Below are positions 17,867 through 27,509 of a DNA stretch of 64,000 nucleotides, in pieces. The position numbers and the translations under genes were made by a program. Origin of the DNA: Halopiger aswanensis (GTDB lineage Archaea > Halobacteriota > Halobacteria > Halobacteriales > Natrialbaceae); NCBI RefSeq assembly GCF_003610195.1, contig NZ_RAPO01000007.1:1-64000 (forward strand), in the 5' to 3' direction. Within the stretch, counting starts at the first letter, position 1; the number at the start of each line of letters is the position of its first letter. Below the pieces are notes generated by a model. The model ran no database searches. It was given only the letters and a program-made list of their open reading frames with translations, and was not told the origin of the DNA.

Positions 17867-18840
17867 TTACCCGAACTCACGCAGGAAGTCGCCCAACGCT
17901 CTCACGAACGTCTTCGCCGTGATCACTGGCGGTGACCGGATCGGCTCGTCGAGCGCGACCTTGATTAGATAATCCGTCAGCCGCCACAGGTTATAGATCA
18001 GCGTCGACAGCGCGAAGTTACACAGGCGAAGTCGGTAGTCCGTCGACGACGTCTTCGGCATGAAATCCTTGATCGACTTGTACTGGTTCTCGATATCCCA
18101 GCGTCGACTGTACCCGTTCATGACACTCGAGATTTCCTCGGGCTCAACGCGGTCCTGGTTCGTTACGAACACCGCGTACTTGCCGTCGGCATCATCGCTC
18201 GTACTCGGTGCGTACAGGAACTCCGCTTCGTGATGGATCTTGCCGTCGATTCCGAACGGGACGTCATGCTTGACAGCTTCGTCCGCTGTTGGATGCTCCT
18301 GAATATTCTGGATTGCCGCTAAGTCATCCTCGTACGTCGGCACTGGAGAGAGATACGTAAGCCCGCGCTCGTGAACATCTGCGTACACGCGATTCACGTA
18401 GTACCCCCGGTCGAACATCACTATATCCAAGTCGACGAACTGCTCTGCCTGATCAAGCAATCGGCTCACTAAATCGGCTTTCGAGTACGATGGAGAGTTC
18501 TCGGGCTCCCACGCAGAGTCCTCTTTGACCGGCTCAATGCCGAGGACGATAGGCGCGTAGTCACCGACCAGCGTGATAGTCGCGTACTTGTACCCGCGTT
18601 TGTACTCGCCATCTTTCTTGTATCCGCTCACCATTTCGGGTAGTCTGGCTTCGCGATCCCTGCCTCCTTGTCTTCCCACGGCCAGACGTGGAACTGCTCG
18701 TGGGTGATGTCGATCGCTGCAACGGTTTCTCGCGAGTCGAAGGGATCGTCGCTACGGATCGAGTTGATGATGTTCTCCGTGGCAGCATTGAACGCCGTCA
18801 TTATTGCGTTTCGAATTTGATCGATTTTTCCTGGAACCAA
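17867..18840 (-). pseudogene. Broken DDE transposase (haloarchaeal IS, IS4-like superfamily)
   Basis: Two frames make up one protein. The first (18628-18840) reads VPGKIDQIRNAIMTAFNAAT, then AAIDITHEQFHVWPW with the first catalytic Asp. The second (from about 18650 to 17867) reads MVSGYKKDGEYKRGYKYATI, VDLDIVMFDRGYY with the second Asp, and SRRWDIENQYKSIKDF with the catalytic Glu in a Y-R-E-K-like signature. A one-base shift around 18630-18640 separates them, and the N-terminal helix-turn-helix part is missing upstream. The element is therefore inactive. The exact IS family is not assigned here, and no inverted terminal repeats were identified. Confidence 0.8.
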
Positions 18841-21279: not shown

Positions 21280-22053
21280 TTACAGATTGTCTATCTTTGA
21301 GGAAGATTTGAGGTATTTTTCGTATGTTTCACGAGCCCATTGAACAGCTGCTTCCTTATCGTTTATTATTACGCCTTGAACACCTCCCTGGTTATAGACA
21401 GTCATTCCGGCATGTTCTCCTTCAGGAGTTTCCATTATCCACACTGCACAGGGGAGTGATTTTCCAGTACTGTATATGTCGACGTTATCATCTGCAACGA
21501 AATTTTCAAAGTTCTCTCCTCGTACCTCGTGAAGCGACTCGAGAACTTTCTCCTCAACGATGATCTCGACTTCTAGATCATTCTCTTGAATTTCCTTTTC
21601 TAGCAAATCTGGATACGAAGGGAGGGAAAGAGGAGCTAAGCCTGTTAATTTTGTTGCTGACTTCAGCAGTTCGTTGGCTTCTCTCAAAGCAGTTTCTGGC
21701 ACCTGTGGGTCAGCAAGATGCTTAGAAGCCCCCTTAATGAAGTCACGGTCGATGGATATATCACCAGATATGCTATTTATTATCTGGTGAATATCTGCTA
21801 GGTTGTCAGTGGTGTCCACATAGTTTTCGTATGTTTCAAGAGACAACTTTCCAGTTGAGGTAAGATAGTACTCCCCACCTTGGATCTCAACACATCTCAA
21901 GTCCTGTAGGTTTTTGATTGCTCTATCTATCGTAGAACGAGATGCACTCACTTCTTCTGTGAGATCAGATTTCGTTTGTGGGTTATTGAGTAGAGCGCGA
22001 AGAATTTCGGTTCGCTTCCTGAGTGTATCCCGTAGTTTTTCTACATCATCCAT
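21280..22053 (-). CDS. Winged-helix regulator with C-terminal sensing domain
   Basis: The 257-residue protein begins with a winged-helix domain at about 8-75 (RTEILRALLNNPQTKSDLTE, SRSTIDRAIKNLQDLRCVE, then the wing GGEYYLTSTGK). The C-terminal half resembles the DUF1724-like sensor of archaeal regulators (LEVEIIVEEKVLESL, PCAVWIMETPEGEHAGMTVY). It probably responds to a small ligand. It lies 124 bp upstream of the P450 gene in the same orientation, so it may control that gene or the divergent membrane-protein gene. Family assignment is moderate; haloarchaea hold many of these and their ligands are mostly unknown. Confidence 0.8.
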   Translation of the reverse strand: MDDVEKLRDTLRKRTEILRALLNNPQTKSDLTEEVSASRSTIDRAIKNLQDLRCVEIQGGEYYLTSTGKLSLETYENYVDTTDNLADIHQIINSISGDISIDRDFIKGASKHLADPQVPETALREANELLKSATKLTGLAPLSLPSYPDLLEKEIQENDLEVEIIVEEKVLESLHEVRGENFENFVADDNVDIYSTGKSLPCAVWIMETPEGEHAGMTVYNQGGVQGVIINDKEAAVQWARETYEKYLKSSSKIDNL

Positions 22054-22298: not shown

Positions 22299-23207
22299 AT
22301 GAGAGAAAAGATAACTGAGGAATTACGGCAACCAGAGTATACGGGAGAGAACCGGTGTGAAGCATGTACGGTGGTGAATGTCGCGATCGCAGGTGTACTT
22401 GGAGCAATTATTAGCCGGAAATCGAAATTCATGGGAGTAGTGTCGGTTGGCGTTTCTCTAGTGTTGATTTATCTTCGAGGGTACCTCATTCCCGGAACAC
22501 CGACTCTGACCAAACGGTATATGCCAGCGTCTGCTCTCCAACTGTTCGGGAAAGAGCCAGAACCGGAAATTCGGAATGGCTTGGCTGCGACTAATACTTC
22601 TAGTTCAAACACTAGTGGTACTGACACGACTACAGCACAGATCTCTAATGAGGGGGCTCAAAACGAGTCTGAAGGAGAAAATGAAGGGTCCGTCACCCTA
22701 TCACCAGAAGAGTATTTCCTCTCAGTAGGGGTTGTCGAAGAATGTGATGAGAGGGATGATCTGTGCATAGAGACGTCCTTCGAATCAGAGTGGGTTGAAG
22801 AAATGACCGACCTCAATGACGGCGATCTCTCAGCAGAAGATGCTGCTGCAGCATTAGGTCTGGACTTAGAAAATCATGAGTTCACGATTCGAGAGGATGA
22901 TCAAGCTCGCCAGCTGAAGCGGGACCAACAGATTATCGGTCAGTGGCCATCGGAAGCTGCCCTGATTGCCGACATCGCTGCTTCTCGAGTACTTGAGTCG
23001 TGGGATACGAAATGGAGCGAGTACGAACCTGCTGAAAAGGGAGAACTCCTTAACGGGTTGCGATTATTCCTCGATACCTGCCCGACGAGTGATGGAGAGA
23101 TCGTCTTCAGCGAGGAAACAGTCGAATCATGCTGTAGTAGCCACGAAGTGATCGCAGCAGTGTGTGAAGATACAAACGAGCGTATTTTCGAACACCAGAT
23201 GCCGTGA
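22299..23207 (+). CDS. Haloarchaeal membrane protein of unknown function, 302 aa
   Basis: The N-terminus (MREKITEELRQPEYTGENRC) contains ENRCEACT, a CxxC pair. Two membrane helices follow at about 26-42 and 46-62 and a conserved-looking YLIPGTPTLTKRYMP. The remaining 220 residues form an acidic soluble tail with a Ser/Thr/Asn-rich linker (about 95-130) and a C-terminal domain with several Cys (ECDERDDLC, DTCPTSDG, CCSSHEV). Similar proteins exist in many haloarchaea without a known role. The Cys pairs suggest metal binding. It faces away from the regulator gene at 21280. Confidence 0.7.
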   Translation: MREKITEELRQPEYTGENRCEACTVVNVAIAGVLGAIISRKSKFMGVVSVGVSLVLIYLRGYLIPGTPTLTKRYMPASALQLFGKEPEPEIRNGLAATNTSSSNTSGTDTTTAQISNEGAQNESEGENEGSVTLSPEEYFLSVGVVEECDERDDLCIETSFESEWVEEMTDLNDGDLSAEDAAAALGLDLENHEFTIREDDQARQLKRDQQIIGQWPSEAALIADIAASRVLESWDTKWSEYEPAEKGELLNGLRLFLDTCPTSDGEIVFSEETVESCCSSHEVIAAVCEDTNERIFEHQMP

Positions 23208-23363
23208 TCTCTCCTGTTCCTAGGCCCTCTTAACGAATTGAGGAACAGACGTTTTGGAATTTTTCTGCTGATATATTGGTGGGAGAAACTGGAACACTCT
23301 CAAAGCGTATATCTGTCAGTTTAGTTTAGAAATCCTTATGTGGTGTGTGGTTGAGCATACAAT

Positions 23364-23477
23364 ATGGAAGGTAAACCAGACATGGTGGTAGAAATACCAG
23401 ACACAATGGTAGCAGAACCAGACATTGGTTGGAGTAGTAATGGAGAGACAACTAATCACGGAGGGTTCAACGCATGA
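23364..23477 (+). CDS. 37-aa leader peptide with repeats, coupled to DUF2178-type gene
   Basis: This short frame begins MEGKPDMVVEIPDTMVAEPD and ends GGFNA. The peptide repeats a PDMVVEI / PDTMVAE / PDIGWSS unit of about seven residues, which follows from three ~21-bp repeats starting ACCAGACA in the DNA. Its TGA overlaps the ATG of the next gene (ATGA), so the two are translationally coupled. There is no hydrophobic segment. It may be a leader peptide, a small antitoxin-like partner or a signal. No known family is recognised. Confidence 0.5.
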   Translation: MEGKPDMVVEIPDTMVAEPDIGWSSNGETTNHGGFNA

Positions 23478-23869
23478 GCCAAGCAAATTCAAGTCTGGCG
23501 CAGCAGAAAAGAGCAGGTTATCTCCTCCTAGGAGGCGCACTGGTAACGCTTGTTGGGGGTATAGCGGTGTTTTTCTACTATGATGCACCTCCGATGAGTT
23601 ATGCAGGTATTCTCGTGCCTGTAGTGATCCTATCGGCGTTCGGATTTAGATCGATAACAGCTACTCGCAACGAGAAGGCATTAGGTGATGAGAGGACTCG
23701 GGATCTGATTGGAAGAGTCAGCATTAACGCATTTTGGTGGCTAATGGCGATCATCCTGATCAATGGTTTCTGGAATGTAGTCCCCAGGGAAAGCGCAGAG
23801 TTCCTGTATCTGGGTAGTGGATTAGGCATATTCGCCATTTACTATGTGTACTACCGCTATGTCCGATAA
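23474..23869 (+). CDS. DUF2178-like small membrane protein
   Basis: The 131-residue protein has four predicted membrane helices (about 14-34 LLLGGALVTLVGGIAVFFYY; 42-58 AGILVPVVILSAFGF; 85-104 ISINAFWWLMAIILIN; 113-129 YLGSGLGIFAIYYVYY). The loop ITATRNEKALGDERTRDLIG between helices two and three is typical of the DUF2178 group. These genes are commonly paired with a small XRE regulator, as here: the downstream gene overlaps by 11 bp. The function of the family is unknown. As it lies next to a halocin-like gene, it could be an immunity or sensing protein, but this is only inferred. Confidence 0.75.
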   Translation: MSQANSSLAQQKRAGYLLLGGALVTLVGGIAVFFYYDAPPMSYAGILVPVVILSAFGFRSITATRNEKALGDERTRDLIGRVSINAFWWLMAIILINGFWNVVPRESAEFLYLGSGLGIFAIYYVYYRYVR

Positions 23870-24065
23870 AACGATAGATAATGAATTGAAGGTCTATCGA
23901 GCTAAGCGCGATATCACGCAGGAGGAACTCGCAAAAGAGATCGGCGTTACACGGCAAACGATAAACGCTATCGAGAGAAACCGATACAACCCCTCTCTGG
24001 AAATAGCATTCGAGCTAGCAGAATATTTCGACTGCTCAGTAGAGGATATTTTCACCTACGAATAG
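23859..24065 (+). CDS. XRE-family helix-turn-helix regulator, 68 aa
   Basis: The protein is almost only a helix-turn-helix: KVYRAKRDITQEELAKEIGV, then TRQTINAIERNRYNPSLEI with the recognition helix, and FELAEYFDCSVEDIFTYE. This is the compact Cro/CI-like type that accompanies DUF2178-like membrane proteins. The ATG at 23859 is chosen as it gives the standard family start (MSDKTIDNELK). It overlaps the membrane protein by 11 bp and would be co-expressed with it. It probably represses its own operon. Confidence 0.85.
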   Translation: MSDKTIDNELKVYRAKRDITQEELAKEIGVTRQTINAIERNRYNPSLEIAFELAEYFDCSVEDIFTYE

Positions 24066-24280
24066 CAGCTCTACTTTTCTTGTTCTTGAGGAGAAGTTGA
24101 GCATTCTAGTCGAGAGTGTAGCAACACCCCCAGCAGTTGAATGGATAGATCAGAGTCAGGGTTTTTGCTCAATTGCTACTAGATAGGCCAAAAACTGAAT
24201 AATAGTCCAAGGAATAGTAATAGAGTATAAATTCTTCGGGAGAAGAAATAAATATATCGGTGATATTCAACCTAATTGCA

Positions 24281-25237
24281 ATGCGAGAAAATACTGATTC
24301 CGAAGACGACTCGAATAAAGTCAACAGACGGAATGTTCTTCGGACGCTCGGTGCAGGTGGTGTCGCAACGGTCGCTGGTATTGGACAAGTCTCAGCGTTG
24401 TCTGGAGAAGATGATGTGCTGGAGAAGGACATGGTGAAGGCCCTCCTAGCTGAGCTCAACGATCCCGAAGTCAGCGAGGTCACCATCGATGGGCAGGACC
24501 TCACAGAAGAGGTCTCGATGGAGAGAGCTGAAATCGAGACGAAGTTCGGGACCATCGTGTACGCGGAAATCGACGAGCCCGATGCTGGACCTGAAGCCTA
24601 CTTCGAAGTCGACAAACTCACTGGAGAACTGGAGGAGGAGGTCCCGGAAAAATACCGTGGACTTCCGGGTAATACTGATCTCTTCCTCGTCTACGAAGAC
24701 GGGGACGTCGTGGCACGACGAACTGCGACAAACCCCGAACGGAAGCGGATCGCGGAGGCTGTCGGATTCACGGATGAAGAAGAGGAAGAGATGCCTATTA
24801 TCTACGACGCGGAGACTGGTGTCTTCGAGACCGGCAAGCTAGAGGAAAACGAAGAGGAAGACGACGAGACAGGCAAACAGTACCGAATCGAACTCGAAGA
24901 AGCGTTCGAAGTGAACGAGCACCAGGAAACGCACAAGGCCCTCCGAGAAGAGAAATACACGATCGAAGTCCTCGAACTCGAGGATGAATCAGACGATGGG
25001 GGATTCTCGATCATGCAGTCGGGCTGGCAGGGCAGCGACTGTTGGGGTCTGAACTTCGGTGCGCCCTGTTCCCAGTGCGTTTTCGGTAGTGGTGTCTGTG
25101 GTGGCTGTGCAGCTGTCTGTGGTGCCACTGGAGGGCTCGGCTGTATTCCATGTATCGCTGGCTGTGCTGGAACTGGGGGCTCCTGCGGCTGCTGTCTCAG
25201 CTGTAACAGCAACACCCACAATCCAGTGTGTTACTAA
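24281..25237 (+). CDS. Tat-exported precursor with Cys-rich C-terminus, halocin C8-like
   Basis: The 318-residue protein has a Tat signal (NRRNVLRTLGAGGVATVAG, cleavage near VSA), a long, very acidic middle part (residues 40-245) and a C-terminal stretch of about 70 residues with 14 Cys (first at 254, last at 317) spaced by Gly, Ala and Ser. The ending VCGGCAAVCGATGG and CIPCIAGC, CGCCLSC recalls halocin C8, a Cys-rich antimicrobial peptide cut from the end of a Tat-exported precursor whose N-terminal part gives immunity. The processing site is not obvious; it may lie around 240-250 after the acidic segment. It follows the XRE gene by 215 bp. Similarity is by pattern, not alignment. Confidence 0.65.
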   Translation: MRENTDSEDDSNKVNRRNVLRTLGAGGVATVAGIGQVSALSGEDDVLEKDMVKALLAELNDPEVSEVTIDGQDLTEEVSMERAEIETKFGTIVYAEIDEPDAGPEAYFEVDKLTGELEEEVPEKYRGLPGNTDLFLVYEDGDVVARRTATNPERKRIAEAVGFTDEEEEEMPIIYDAETGVFETGKLEENEEEDDETGKQYRIELEEAFEVNEHQETHKALREEKYTIEVLELEDESDDGGFSIMQSGWQGSDCWGLNFGAPCSQCVFGSGVCGGCAAVCGATGGLGCIPCIAGCAGTGGSCGCCLSCNSNTHNPVCY

Positions 25238-25992: not shown

Positions 25993-26151
25993 ATGCTCTG
26001 GGCGATCAGCGTCGCTGCAACGATCTCCTCGTACGACGAACCCGAGAATCTACAGCAGTGGCTCGAGGAGTTCAACGAGGCTTACGCCGAGGTCAGTGAG
26101 ATCATTCCCGTACCTCACTTTCGAACGCTGCGGCCAGTTCCTCACGCATGA
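25993..26151 (+). CDS. Possible 52-aa protein overlapping the integrase 3' end
   Basis: The frame begins MLWAISVAATISSYDEPENL and continues with QQWLEEFNEAYAEVSEIIPV, giving one short hydrophobic start and an amphipathic acidic helix. The reading is open further upstream for about 27 codons without a start codon, so this may be the end of a longer gene that has lost its beginning. It overlaps the integrase gene, antiparallel, by 50 bp. Composition is protein-like; no family is recognised. Confidence 0.4.
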   Translation: MLWAISVAATISSYDEPENLQQWLEEFNEAYAEVSEIIPVPHFRTLRPVPHA

Positions 26152-27403
26152 ATTCCCGTCGGCGTTTCCGTGCTTCCTCCTCACCAAGATAGTTTTCGAC
26201 GACGACGTTCGGATCCGAACTGCCCTGTTCGGCAGCAACCGCCTCGATTTGGCTCGAGAGTCGTTTCACAGCGTCACCGTAGGTTCGGTACCAGAACCGC
26301 CGTCCGTACTGTGGCGTCGGCGTCTGCTCGCGGATCTCGAGGCCAGCGTCCTTCGCCAACCTCTTGAACCGTTTGGTGATCGTATCCGGGCTTCGGTGGC
26401 CGCTTTCAGCGGCAGAACTCGGGAACAGGTAGCCGTCCCAGTCGTCGCGATTGGAGAGCTGTGTCCAGCGATCTGCCAGAGTCTCGAGGCCGTAGAGGAT
26501 CGACACGCGACCGGGACCGTTCTTTCGTTTCTCGTCGAAAACGATGTGCGGATCCTCTGCCTCGAAATCGAATCCGTCGTCGTCAGTCGGCGCGAACTGG
26601 TCACGTGAGAGTCGTGCGACCTCCCTGCGGCGTAGGCCCCACGCACACGTCGCGACGACGAGCAGGCGATCAGCAACCGAGTCACATGCATCAACGAGCA
26701 CCCGGACGTCGTCGGCCTTGAGGGCTGGCGGGTCGCGATCGTCGGCGCCAGGCGTCGATCCCTTCCAGTTGGTTTCGTGGGGCGCCCCGGCGGCCGGGTT
26801 GAACTCCGCGTCCCGATCCATCACCAGCCGTTCGTAGAACTTCTGAACCTCGAGCAAGTGTTTGTACCGCGACTCGTGACTCTCGAGGTCGGGGTCTGGG
26901 TTCGTTTCATCCCACTCGTCGAAGACGTCCCGCACGCGTTGGCGTTCGATCCGTGGCTGGACGTCGGCGCTGTCCTCGCGAATGCGCGTGACGATATCTG
27001 CGCGGCCGTGCAGGTCGGCGTATGTGCGGACAAAGCGAGCGAGTCGCGAACGTTTTGAGTCGATCGTTGTATCAGCGAGTCCCTCCCGGCGGAGATTCTT
27101 CTCAAGATACCACTCGAGCTCACGAATAGTGGTCTCATCTTCGATACCCCAGGAGTAATCCTCGTCACGACCAGGGTCCGGGTAGCCAACCGTCGCAAGA
27201 AACTGCGCGAGCGTGAGGTCGTGATGTTCGCGCAAGGCGTAGGCGATCCCGGAGTAGCCCGCCTCGGTGATCTCCTCGTAGGTCGGCCGCGTCTCGAGGT
27301 CCAGGCCGTCCCGTGCGAGGTCCGGCTCGACCTCAGTGTTCCAGAAATGTTGCAGTTCCTCGAAGGACATGCGGGACCAGTTGATCTGTTCCTGCTGGCT
27401 CAT
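26102..27403 (-). CDS. Tyrosine recombinase / site-specific integrase
   Basis: The protein (433 aa from the ATG at 27403) has an N-terminal SAM-like core-binding domain (TIRELEWYLEKNLRREGLAD, TTIDSKRSRLARFVRTYAD) and a catalytic domain: CAWGLRRREVARLS with the first catalytic Arg, YGRRFWYRTYGDA with the second, and VVENYLGEEE with the Tyr nucleophile. It would integrate and excise the element to its left. A GTG at 27496 would add 31 residues, but the ATG has GTGAGG seven bases upstream. A symmetric site lies just upstream (27510-27543). GC content is higher than in the cargo region. Confidence 0.85.
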   Translation of the reverse strand: MSQQEQINWSRMSFEELQHFWNTEVEPDLARDGLDLETRPTYEEITEAGYSGIAYALREHHDLTLAQFLATVGYPDPGRDEDYSWGIEDETTIRELEWYLEKNLRREGLADTTIDSKRSRLARFVRTYADLHGRADIVTRIREDSADVQPRIERQRVRDVFDEWDETNPDPDLESHESRYKHLLEVQKFYERLVMDRDAEFNPAAGAPHETNWKGSTPGADDRDPPALKADDVRVLVDACDSVADRLLVVATCAWGLRRREVARLSRDQFAPTDDDGFDFEAEDPHIVFDEKRKNGPGRVSILYGLETLADRWTQLSNRDDWDGYLFPSSAAESGHRSPDTITKRFKRLAKDAGLEIREQTPTPQYGRRFWYRTYGDAVKRLSSQIEAVAAEQGSSDPNVVVENYLGEEEARKRRREFMREELAAAFESEVRE

Positions 27404-27509
27404 CGCGTCCTCACTTGCCTGAGAAGGCCGTTTGCTCCGGGTTGGGGTAATTCTAAGACCGGCATTTTCGTACTGCTCGCTATTTGTGATACTCACATAA
27501 GACTACTGC

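Follow-up and report, generated by a model that had tools for sequence, protein, structure and literature searches.

A predicted divergent halocin S8-type precursor with 14 C-terminal cysteines in a conserved gene cassette of Halopiger aswanensis

We analysed a 64,000-nucleotide stretch of the Halopiger aswanensis genome (NCBI RefSeq assembly GCF_003610195.1, contig NZ_RAPO01000007.1, positions 1 to 64,000; referred to as the window) and identified an open reading frame (ORF) which, judged from its sequence, is a real, divergent precursor of the halocin S8 (HalS8) type lying within a conserved cassette (Table 1). The explanation that best accounts for the locus as a whole, and which we consider probable, is that the gene encodes a 14-Cys S8-type precursor which would be exported by the Tat route and cleaved to an antimicrobial peptide held by a ladder of disulfides, with the cassette providing for its immunity and control. 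We infer the antimicrobial activity of this peptide from its relationship to HalS8.

Table 1 Features of the predicted halocin locus and its surroundings in the window
Feature	Position	Strand	Remarks
FilR1/HVO_A0261-type transcription regulator	21280..22053	-	PF08350 E 1e-28, PF25213 E 2e-17
EYTG-family membrane protein, 302 aa, halocin-locus partner	22299..23207	+	Homologue adjoins halS8 (GN101, KBTZ03), four C8-type genes and several further S8-type loci
Small membrane protein, 131 aa, several hydrophobic segments	23474..23869	+	Candidate immunity/sensor protein
Small HTH (Cro/C1, HTH_3) regulator	23844..24065	+	PF01381 E 2e-19; probable start 23859, overlapping the membrane-gene stop
Putative TATA-like box AAATAAATATAT	24246..24257	+	About 29 nt upstream of the precursor ATG; fits a leaderless transcript; read from sequence
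Predicted halocin S8-type precursor gene, 318 aa	24281..25237	+	Haloarchaeal relatives; blastp and prodomain HMM matches to pro-HalS8
Tat signal region, residues 1-44, NRRNVLRTLGAGGVATVAGIGQVSA	24281..24412	+	TIGR01409/PF10518 slightly below cut-off; RR invariant in alignment A1
Acidic conserved prodomain, residues 45-246	24413..25018	+	Kept in family, homologous to pro-HalS8; putative chaperone/immunity role
Cys-rich C-terminal domain, residues 247-318	25019..25234	+	Predicted mature peptide of 67-72 aa, 14 Cys, no Lys/Arg
Tyrosine integrase	26102-27496

The precursor ORF is open throughout its 318 codons, and the plan described in the first-pass annotation, a Tat signal followed by an acidic middle and 14 C-terminal Cys, was confirmed. 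The Tat motif NRRNVLR occupies residues 15-21, with weak TAT matches in both NCBIfam and Pfam, the acidic domain contains 64 Asp/Glu against 18 Lys/Arg (pI 4.05), and all 14 Cys fall within residues 254-317 (the last 65 residues), the final 67-72 residues having a single Asp and lacking Lys and Arg altogether. More than 10 Cys per 70-residue stretch was seen in no other ORF of at least 100 amino acids in the window (210 ORFs), and the same arrangement of Tat signal, acidic front and Cys-rich end recurs in related genes from dozens of haloarchaeal genomes, so that the layout is not a product of chance. Comparison of the precursor with PADLOC, PHROGs and the PDB returned nothing useful, a weak match to PHROG 23815 being limited to residues 7-93 including the Tat region, and direct look-ups of the protein in genome-contig and phage collections gave no match.

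Halocin S8 was reportedly described in 2000 as a purified microhalocin. An HMM of the family front domain, constructed from 30 relatives with the most S8-like member left out, scored E = 1.2e-11 against pro-HalS8 stripped of its signal peptide, compared with 0.028 for the best of 2000 shuffles, and direct blastp comparison of the precursor with pro-HalS8 gave E = 3e-10. The Cys-domain HMM alone scored the HalS8 Cys domain no higher than shuffled sequences, with eight Cys positions aligning; as this profile fails to recover HalS8, homology rests on the front domain together with the order of the Cys. The 36-residue HalS8 sequence used as query, which we take to be the correct one, occurs unaltered in Halobacterium sp. 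GN101, H. salinarum KBTZ03 and Halobacterium sp. BOL4-2, and is read as part of 311-residue precursors in GN101, a strain known for microhalocin R1, and in KBTZ03. Its calculated mass of 3581 Da fits the reported 3.58 kDa (PMC8699383). On these comparisons the H. aswanensis precursor belongs to the HalS8 precursor family. It shares with HalS8 of Halobacterium strain S8a the homologous front domain, the Tat signal, an approximate length (311 amino acids in HalS8, 318 here), the Cys order C1, C3, C4, C5, C8, C9, C10, C12 and an adjoining EYTG gene. However, in HalS8, with its 8 Cys, the released product is an internal piece of 36 residues, whereas the present precursor has 14 Cys, Cys pairs 2-11 and 6-7, a tail pair and the small membrane protein/HTH gene pair being additions relative to HalS8, and the 45-residue tail of the HalS8 type is absent.

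The first-pass annotation had proposed a new halocin precursor on the plan of halocin C8, to be compared with C8-family profiles. The analogy of layout (Tat signal, acidic front, Cys-rich end) stands, as does the observation that the number and spacing of the Cys differ, C8 (ProC8) having 10 Cys in another order against 14 here, but kinship with the C8 family does not. TIGR04449 (halocin_C8_dom) had no match in the precursor or its genome, although it matches C8-type genes in 43 of the 392 haloarchaeal genomes, including a locus encoding HalC8 itself, and an H. volcanii control was positive. When profiles of 20 C8-type precursors and 31 relatives of this precursor were compared by hhalign, front and Cys domains separately, the probabilities were 0.9 % and 0.7 % respectively, and the C8 front HMM likewise gave no match to pro-HalS8. 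These two results, the TIGR04449 miss and the hhalign values, speak against membership of the C8 family for a precursor which, on that reading, would join a HalI-like front to a C8-type 10-Cys peptide; the shared layout and the presence at C8-type loci too of FilR1-type regulators and sometimes EYTG speak in its favour, yet we consider it very improbable. The more general proposal of a new halocin precursor is well supported by homology to pro-HalS8 and by cassette genes found at halocin loci, with S8 and not C8 as the predicted family. A role of the front part in immunity is known for C8 only (PMC11509114), and its neutralising the peptide in H. aswanensis would be carried over by analogy.

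To delimit the family, 392 haloarchaeal genomes were searched first with the precursor protein and next with A1, an alignment built from 18 relatives, identifying approximately 50 genes that have this front domain and Cys order in common, the remaining matches being restricted to the Tat signal. The closest relative (G028, 36 % identity in the genome search) likewise has 14 Cys. Family precursors are located on plasmids and a conjugative element, and certain genomes contain tandem arrays of two to four adjacent copies (L095, L107, L109). A Gln before the first Cys, considered as a possible cleavage mark, was dropped, being present in about half of the members only. In the halocin literature examined, a scope that excludes a 2019 survey of archaeal toxins and halocins which reportedly expanded the C8 family, we did not find HalS8 placed in any wider family; the present analysis adds about 50 relatives and a predicted disulfide map open to testing on a single purified peptide.

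The number of Cys in the C-terminal domain is even in all 48 members compared (10 in 28 members, 12 in 12, 8 in six and 14 in two), a count which is independent of the alignment, and individual Cys covary in pairs. Among the 48 members, Cys 6 and 7 are both present in 39 and both missing from 9 without a split (Fisher p 6e-10), Cys 4 and 9 are both present in 43 and both missing from 5, again without a split (p 6e-7), Cys 2 and 11 are both present in 22, both missing from 22 and split in 4 (p 2e-9), and Cys 5 and 8 are both present in 45, both missing from 2 and split in 1 (p 0.003), although kinship among the members makes the effective numbers smaller than these Fisher values imply. An initial alignment of 33 members showed Cys 1 and 12 jointly absent from two related sequences and never split, while Cys 3 and 10 are invariant in the family; pairs 1-12 and 3-10 are thus suggested by two sequences and by exclusion. 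The pairs nest as a ladder (1-12, 2-11, 3-10, 4-9, 5-8, 6-7), and a seventh, composed of the second Cys of GCC and the last Cys, is found in this precursor and in the L094 protein. On a tree of the front domain the paired losses need about 4 (6-7), 2 (4-9), 7 (2-11) and 2 (5-8) changes, which marks them as repeated events. Judged from its sequence, the C-terminal end resembles a small hairpin held together by as many as seven disulfides. The CxxCxxxC and CxxCxxxxC spacings are compatible with two facing helices; AlphaFold models made without an alignment had a mean pLDDT of 43-44, too poor to test a helical hairpin. The published 36-residue HalS8 holds only C1, C3, C4 and C5, with the predicted partners in the following 45 residues, a conflict which may indicate that release differs between members, that the ladder exists in the precursor only, or that the other arm was lost or missed.

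Going upstream from the precursor, the cassette consists of the HTH_3 regulator, the 131-residue membrane protein, the EYTG protein and, on the opposite strand, the FilR1/HVO_A0261-type regulator, so that the small membrane protein and regulator previously described as neighbours are indeed present. Homologues of the small membrane protein were found in 5 of 40 searched genomes, four of the five copies being no more than 2.5 kb away from an S8-type precursor (that of G287 runs across the two ends of a seemingly circular contig), and homologues of the HTH regulator adjoin family precursors at L094, L096, L100 and L114. As the membrane/HTH pair is almost confined to S8-type loci, it is the first choice for immunity and sensing. 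FilR1-type regulators occur within 3 kb of 11 of 24 C8-type and 4 of 49 S8-type genes, with none in 400 kb of control DNA. At L114:6432-8861, on plasmid pHl5678-1 of Haloferax larsenii NCIM 5678, the membrane protein, HTH, EYTG and precursor genes stand in a row; this strain is listed as a producer of halocin HA3, reported at 13 kDa, and the presence of a complete cassette in a listed producer makes the L114 precursor a candidate HA3 gene. The 13 kDa of HA3 does not fit the Cys domain alone. A sequence some 110 bases upstream of the gene for the small membrane protein (CATACAATATGGAAGG, 23356-23371) is largely kept in four loci and may represent an operator or transcript start. A small ORF before the same gene was considered and rejected, the conservation extending merely to the DNA around its start and not to the peptide.

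The EYTG protein had no match in Pfam, NCBIfam, PADLOC or PHROGs. Its invariant motifs in alignment A2 are EYTGxNRCxxCTxxN, RGYLxPGTPxLTK and CC, and the protein also has zinc-ribbon-like Cys. Almost all haloarchaea encode EYTG (359 of 392 genomes, with 1-7 copies each), in core and halocin-linked copies. A homologue lies 0.4-1.2 kb from halS8, the 36-residue HalS8 sequence itself being 1-2 kb from it in GN101, KBTZ03 and BOL4-2, and the EYTG gene of the window is 1 kb from the precursor. EYTG was found within 3 kb of 13 of 51 S8-type ORFs, a minority and a set that includes one locus fetched twice, and of 4 of 26 C8-type genes, a fraction which is not unbiased since three of those loci were fetched for a nearby EYTG; at approximately 2.6 copies per genome the chance of EYTG per locus is about 0.5 %. 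The cassette copies do not form a single clade, an arrangement ruled out by the tree, which requires at least 6 changes and so points to repeated recruitment or movement of EYTG. A scan of viral contigs for EYTG found no match, and a pattern scan of genome contigs, using poor patterns, gave two core copies only. Of 48 loci retrieved on account of EYTG rather than a known precursor, five have another Tat/Cys-rich ORF within 3 kb (none in the 400 kb control), an association which is suggestive only since one of these had already been spotted. Tat/Cys-rich small proteins of other kinds adjoin EYTG at L162:6170-8496 (three in tandem), L166:7913-8878, L161:2790-3521, L164:6072-7043, L188:4170-4865 and L171:4123-4509, and these are candidate further halocin families. 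The EYTG and small-membrane genes offer a handle for halocins missed by current profiles. On a wider reading, which we advance tentatively and hold to be possible rather than probable, HalS8 would be one small member of a large haloarchaeal disulfide-ladder family (pairs 1-12 to 6-7) in which the 36-residue HalS8 is one hairpin arm and the 45-residue tail the other, and EYTG would be a general maturation or immunity partner of Tat-exported Cys-rich halocins, and as such a marker for hidden halocin loci.

Two further explanations leave killing out of account. The precursor might be a Cys-rich secreted product serving to bind metal or iron-sulfur, or acting in redox or stress responses, with no antimicrobial function, as its many CxxC motifs would allow and given that activity data within the family come from HalS8 alone. 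However, searches of NCBIfam, Pfam and the PDB gave no match to a metal-binding family, the even Cys number and nested pairwise loss make hairpin disulfides much likelier than metal ligands, and the homology to pro-HalS8, the tandem variable paralogues and a cassette common to halocin loci also argue against such a protein, which we regard as unlikely. To a similar degree we doubt that the product is a secreted peptide signal or kin-recognition factor, with the membrane/HTH pair as its receptor circuit. The tight overlap of the small membrane and small HTH genes beside the precursor and the enrichment of regulators at such loci would suit a signal, but the closest relative characterised so far acts as an antimicrobial, a peptide signal seldom requires 4-7 disulfides, and the same genes are explained by a killing peptide with a sensor/immunity pair. 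Such an arrangement is known in the SdpC-SdpI-SdpR system of Bacillus, in which genes for a small membrane protein and a small repressor adjoin that of a secreted killing peptide. We use it as a working analogy based on gene arrangement alone, the regulator being of the ArsR type there and of the XRE type here.

If the locus encodes an S8-type halocin, export of the precursor would proceed through the Tat pathway, followed by extracellular proteolysis around residue 250, immediately ahead of the first Cys, at a site predicted from HalS8 (LQ/SDC in HalS8, WQ/GSDC here). Extracellular serine proteases activate other secreted halocin-type precursors (PMC12893001), including HmHapP (HFX_0892) and HalH4 of Haloferax mediterranei, together with halolysin HlyR4; HmHapP differs in releasing an N-terminal helical piece, and it is likened to the present precursor by the activation step with no sequence link claimed. 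The released peptide would be neutral, hydrophobic and about 67-72 residues long, its six nested disulfides stapling a two-helix hairpin and the seventh tying the tail, resulting in an extremely stable antimicrobial against related haloarchaea which may injure their membrane or a surface target. Before cleavage the acidic front domain would hold the peptide soluble and inactive. The small membrane protein and overlapping HTH regulator could then form an immunity/sensor pair and the FilR1-type regulator a switch, while EYTG may serve in maturation or in immunity, where its CxxC and CC, both conserved, are candidates for folding or neutralising the peptide. These partner genes open immunity and processing to direct test by knockout.

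The mobile-element setting claimed by the first-pass annotation was borne out. The left part of the window contains a conjugation system comprising TrbL/VirB6 (PF19590, E 5e-197) and ATPases of the VirB4/TraG and HerA/TraD types, and together with the tyrosine integrase these genes indicate that the cassette is probably the cargo of a conjugative element. A search for attachment-site repeats of at least 14 bp around the integrase returned none, and the boundaries of the element were not located. Adjoining the cassette are genes for a UbiA-type prenyltransferase and a cytochrome P450 (18918-21219), UbiA homologues (42-43 %) also occurring at L099 near an S8-type precursor and EYTG. Broken transposase ORFs are present at 17867-18840, relatives of which (29-42 % identity) flank the halocin loci L114, L158, L159, L168 and L170. 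Two close Tat proteins with 14 tail Cys in a different layout are encoded at L022:1108-1758 and L022:2333-3136.
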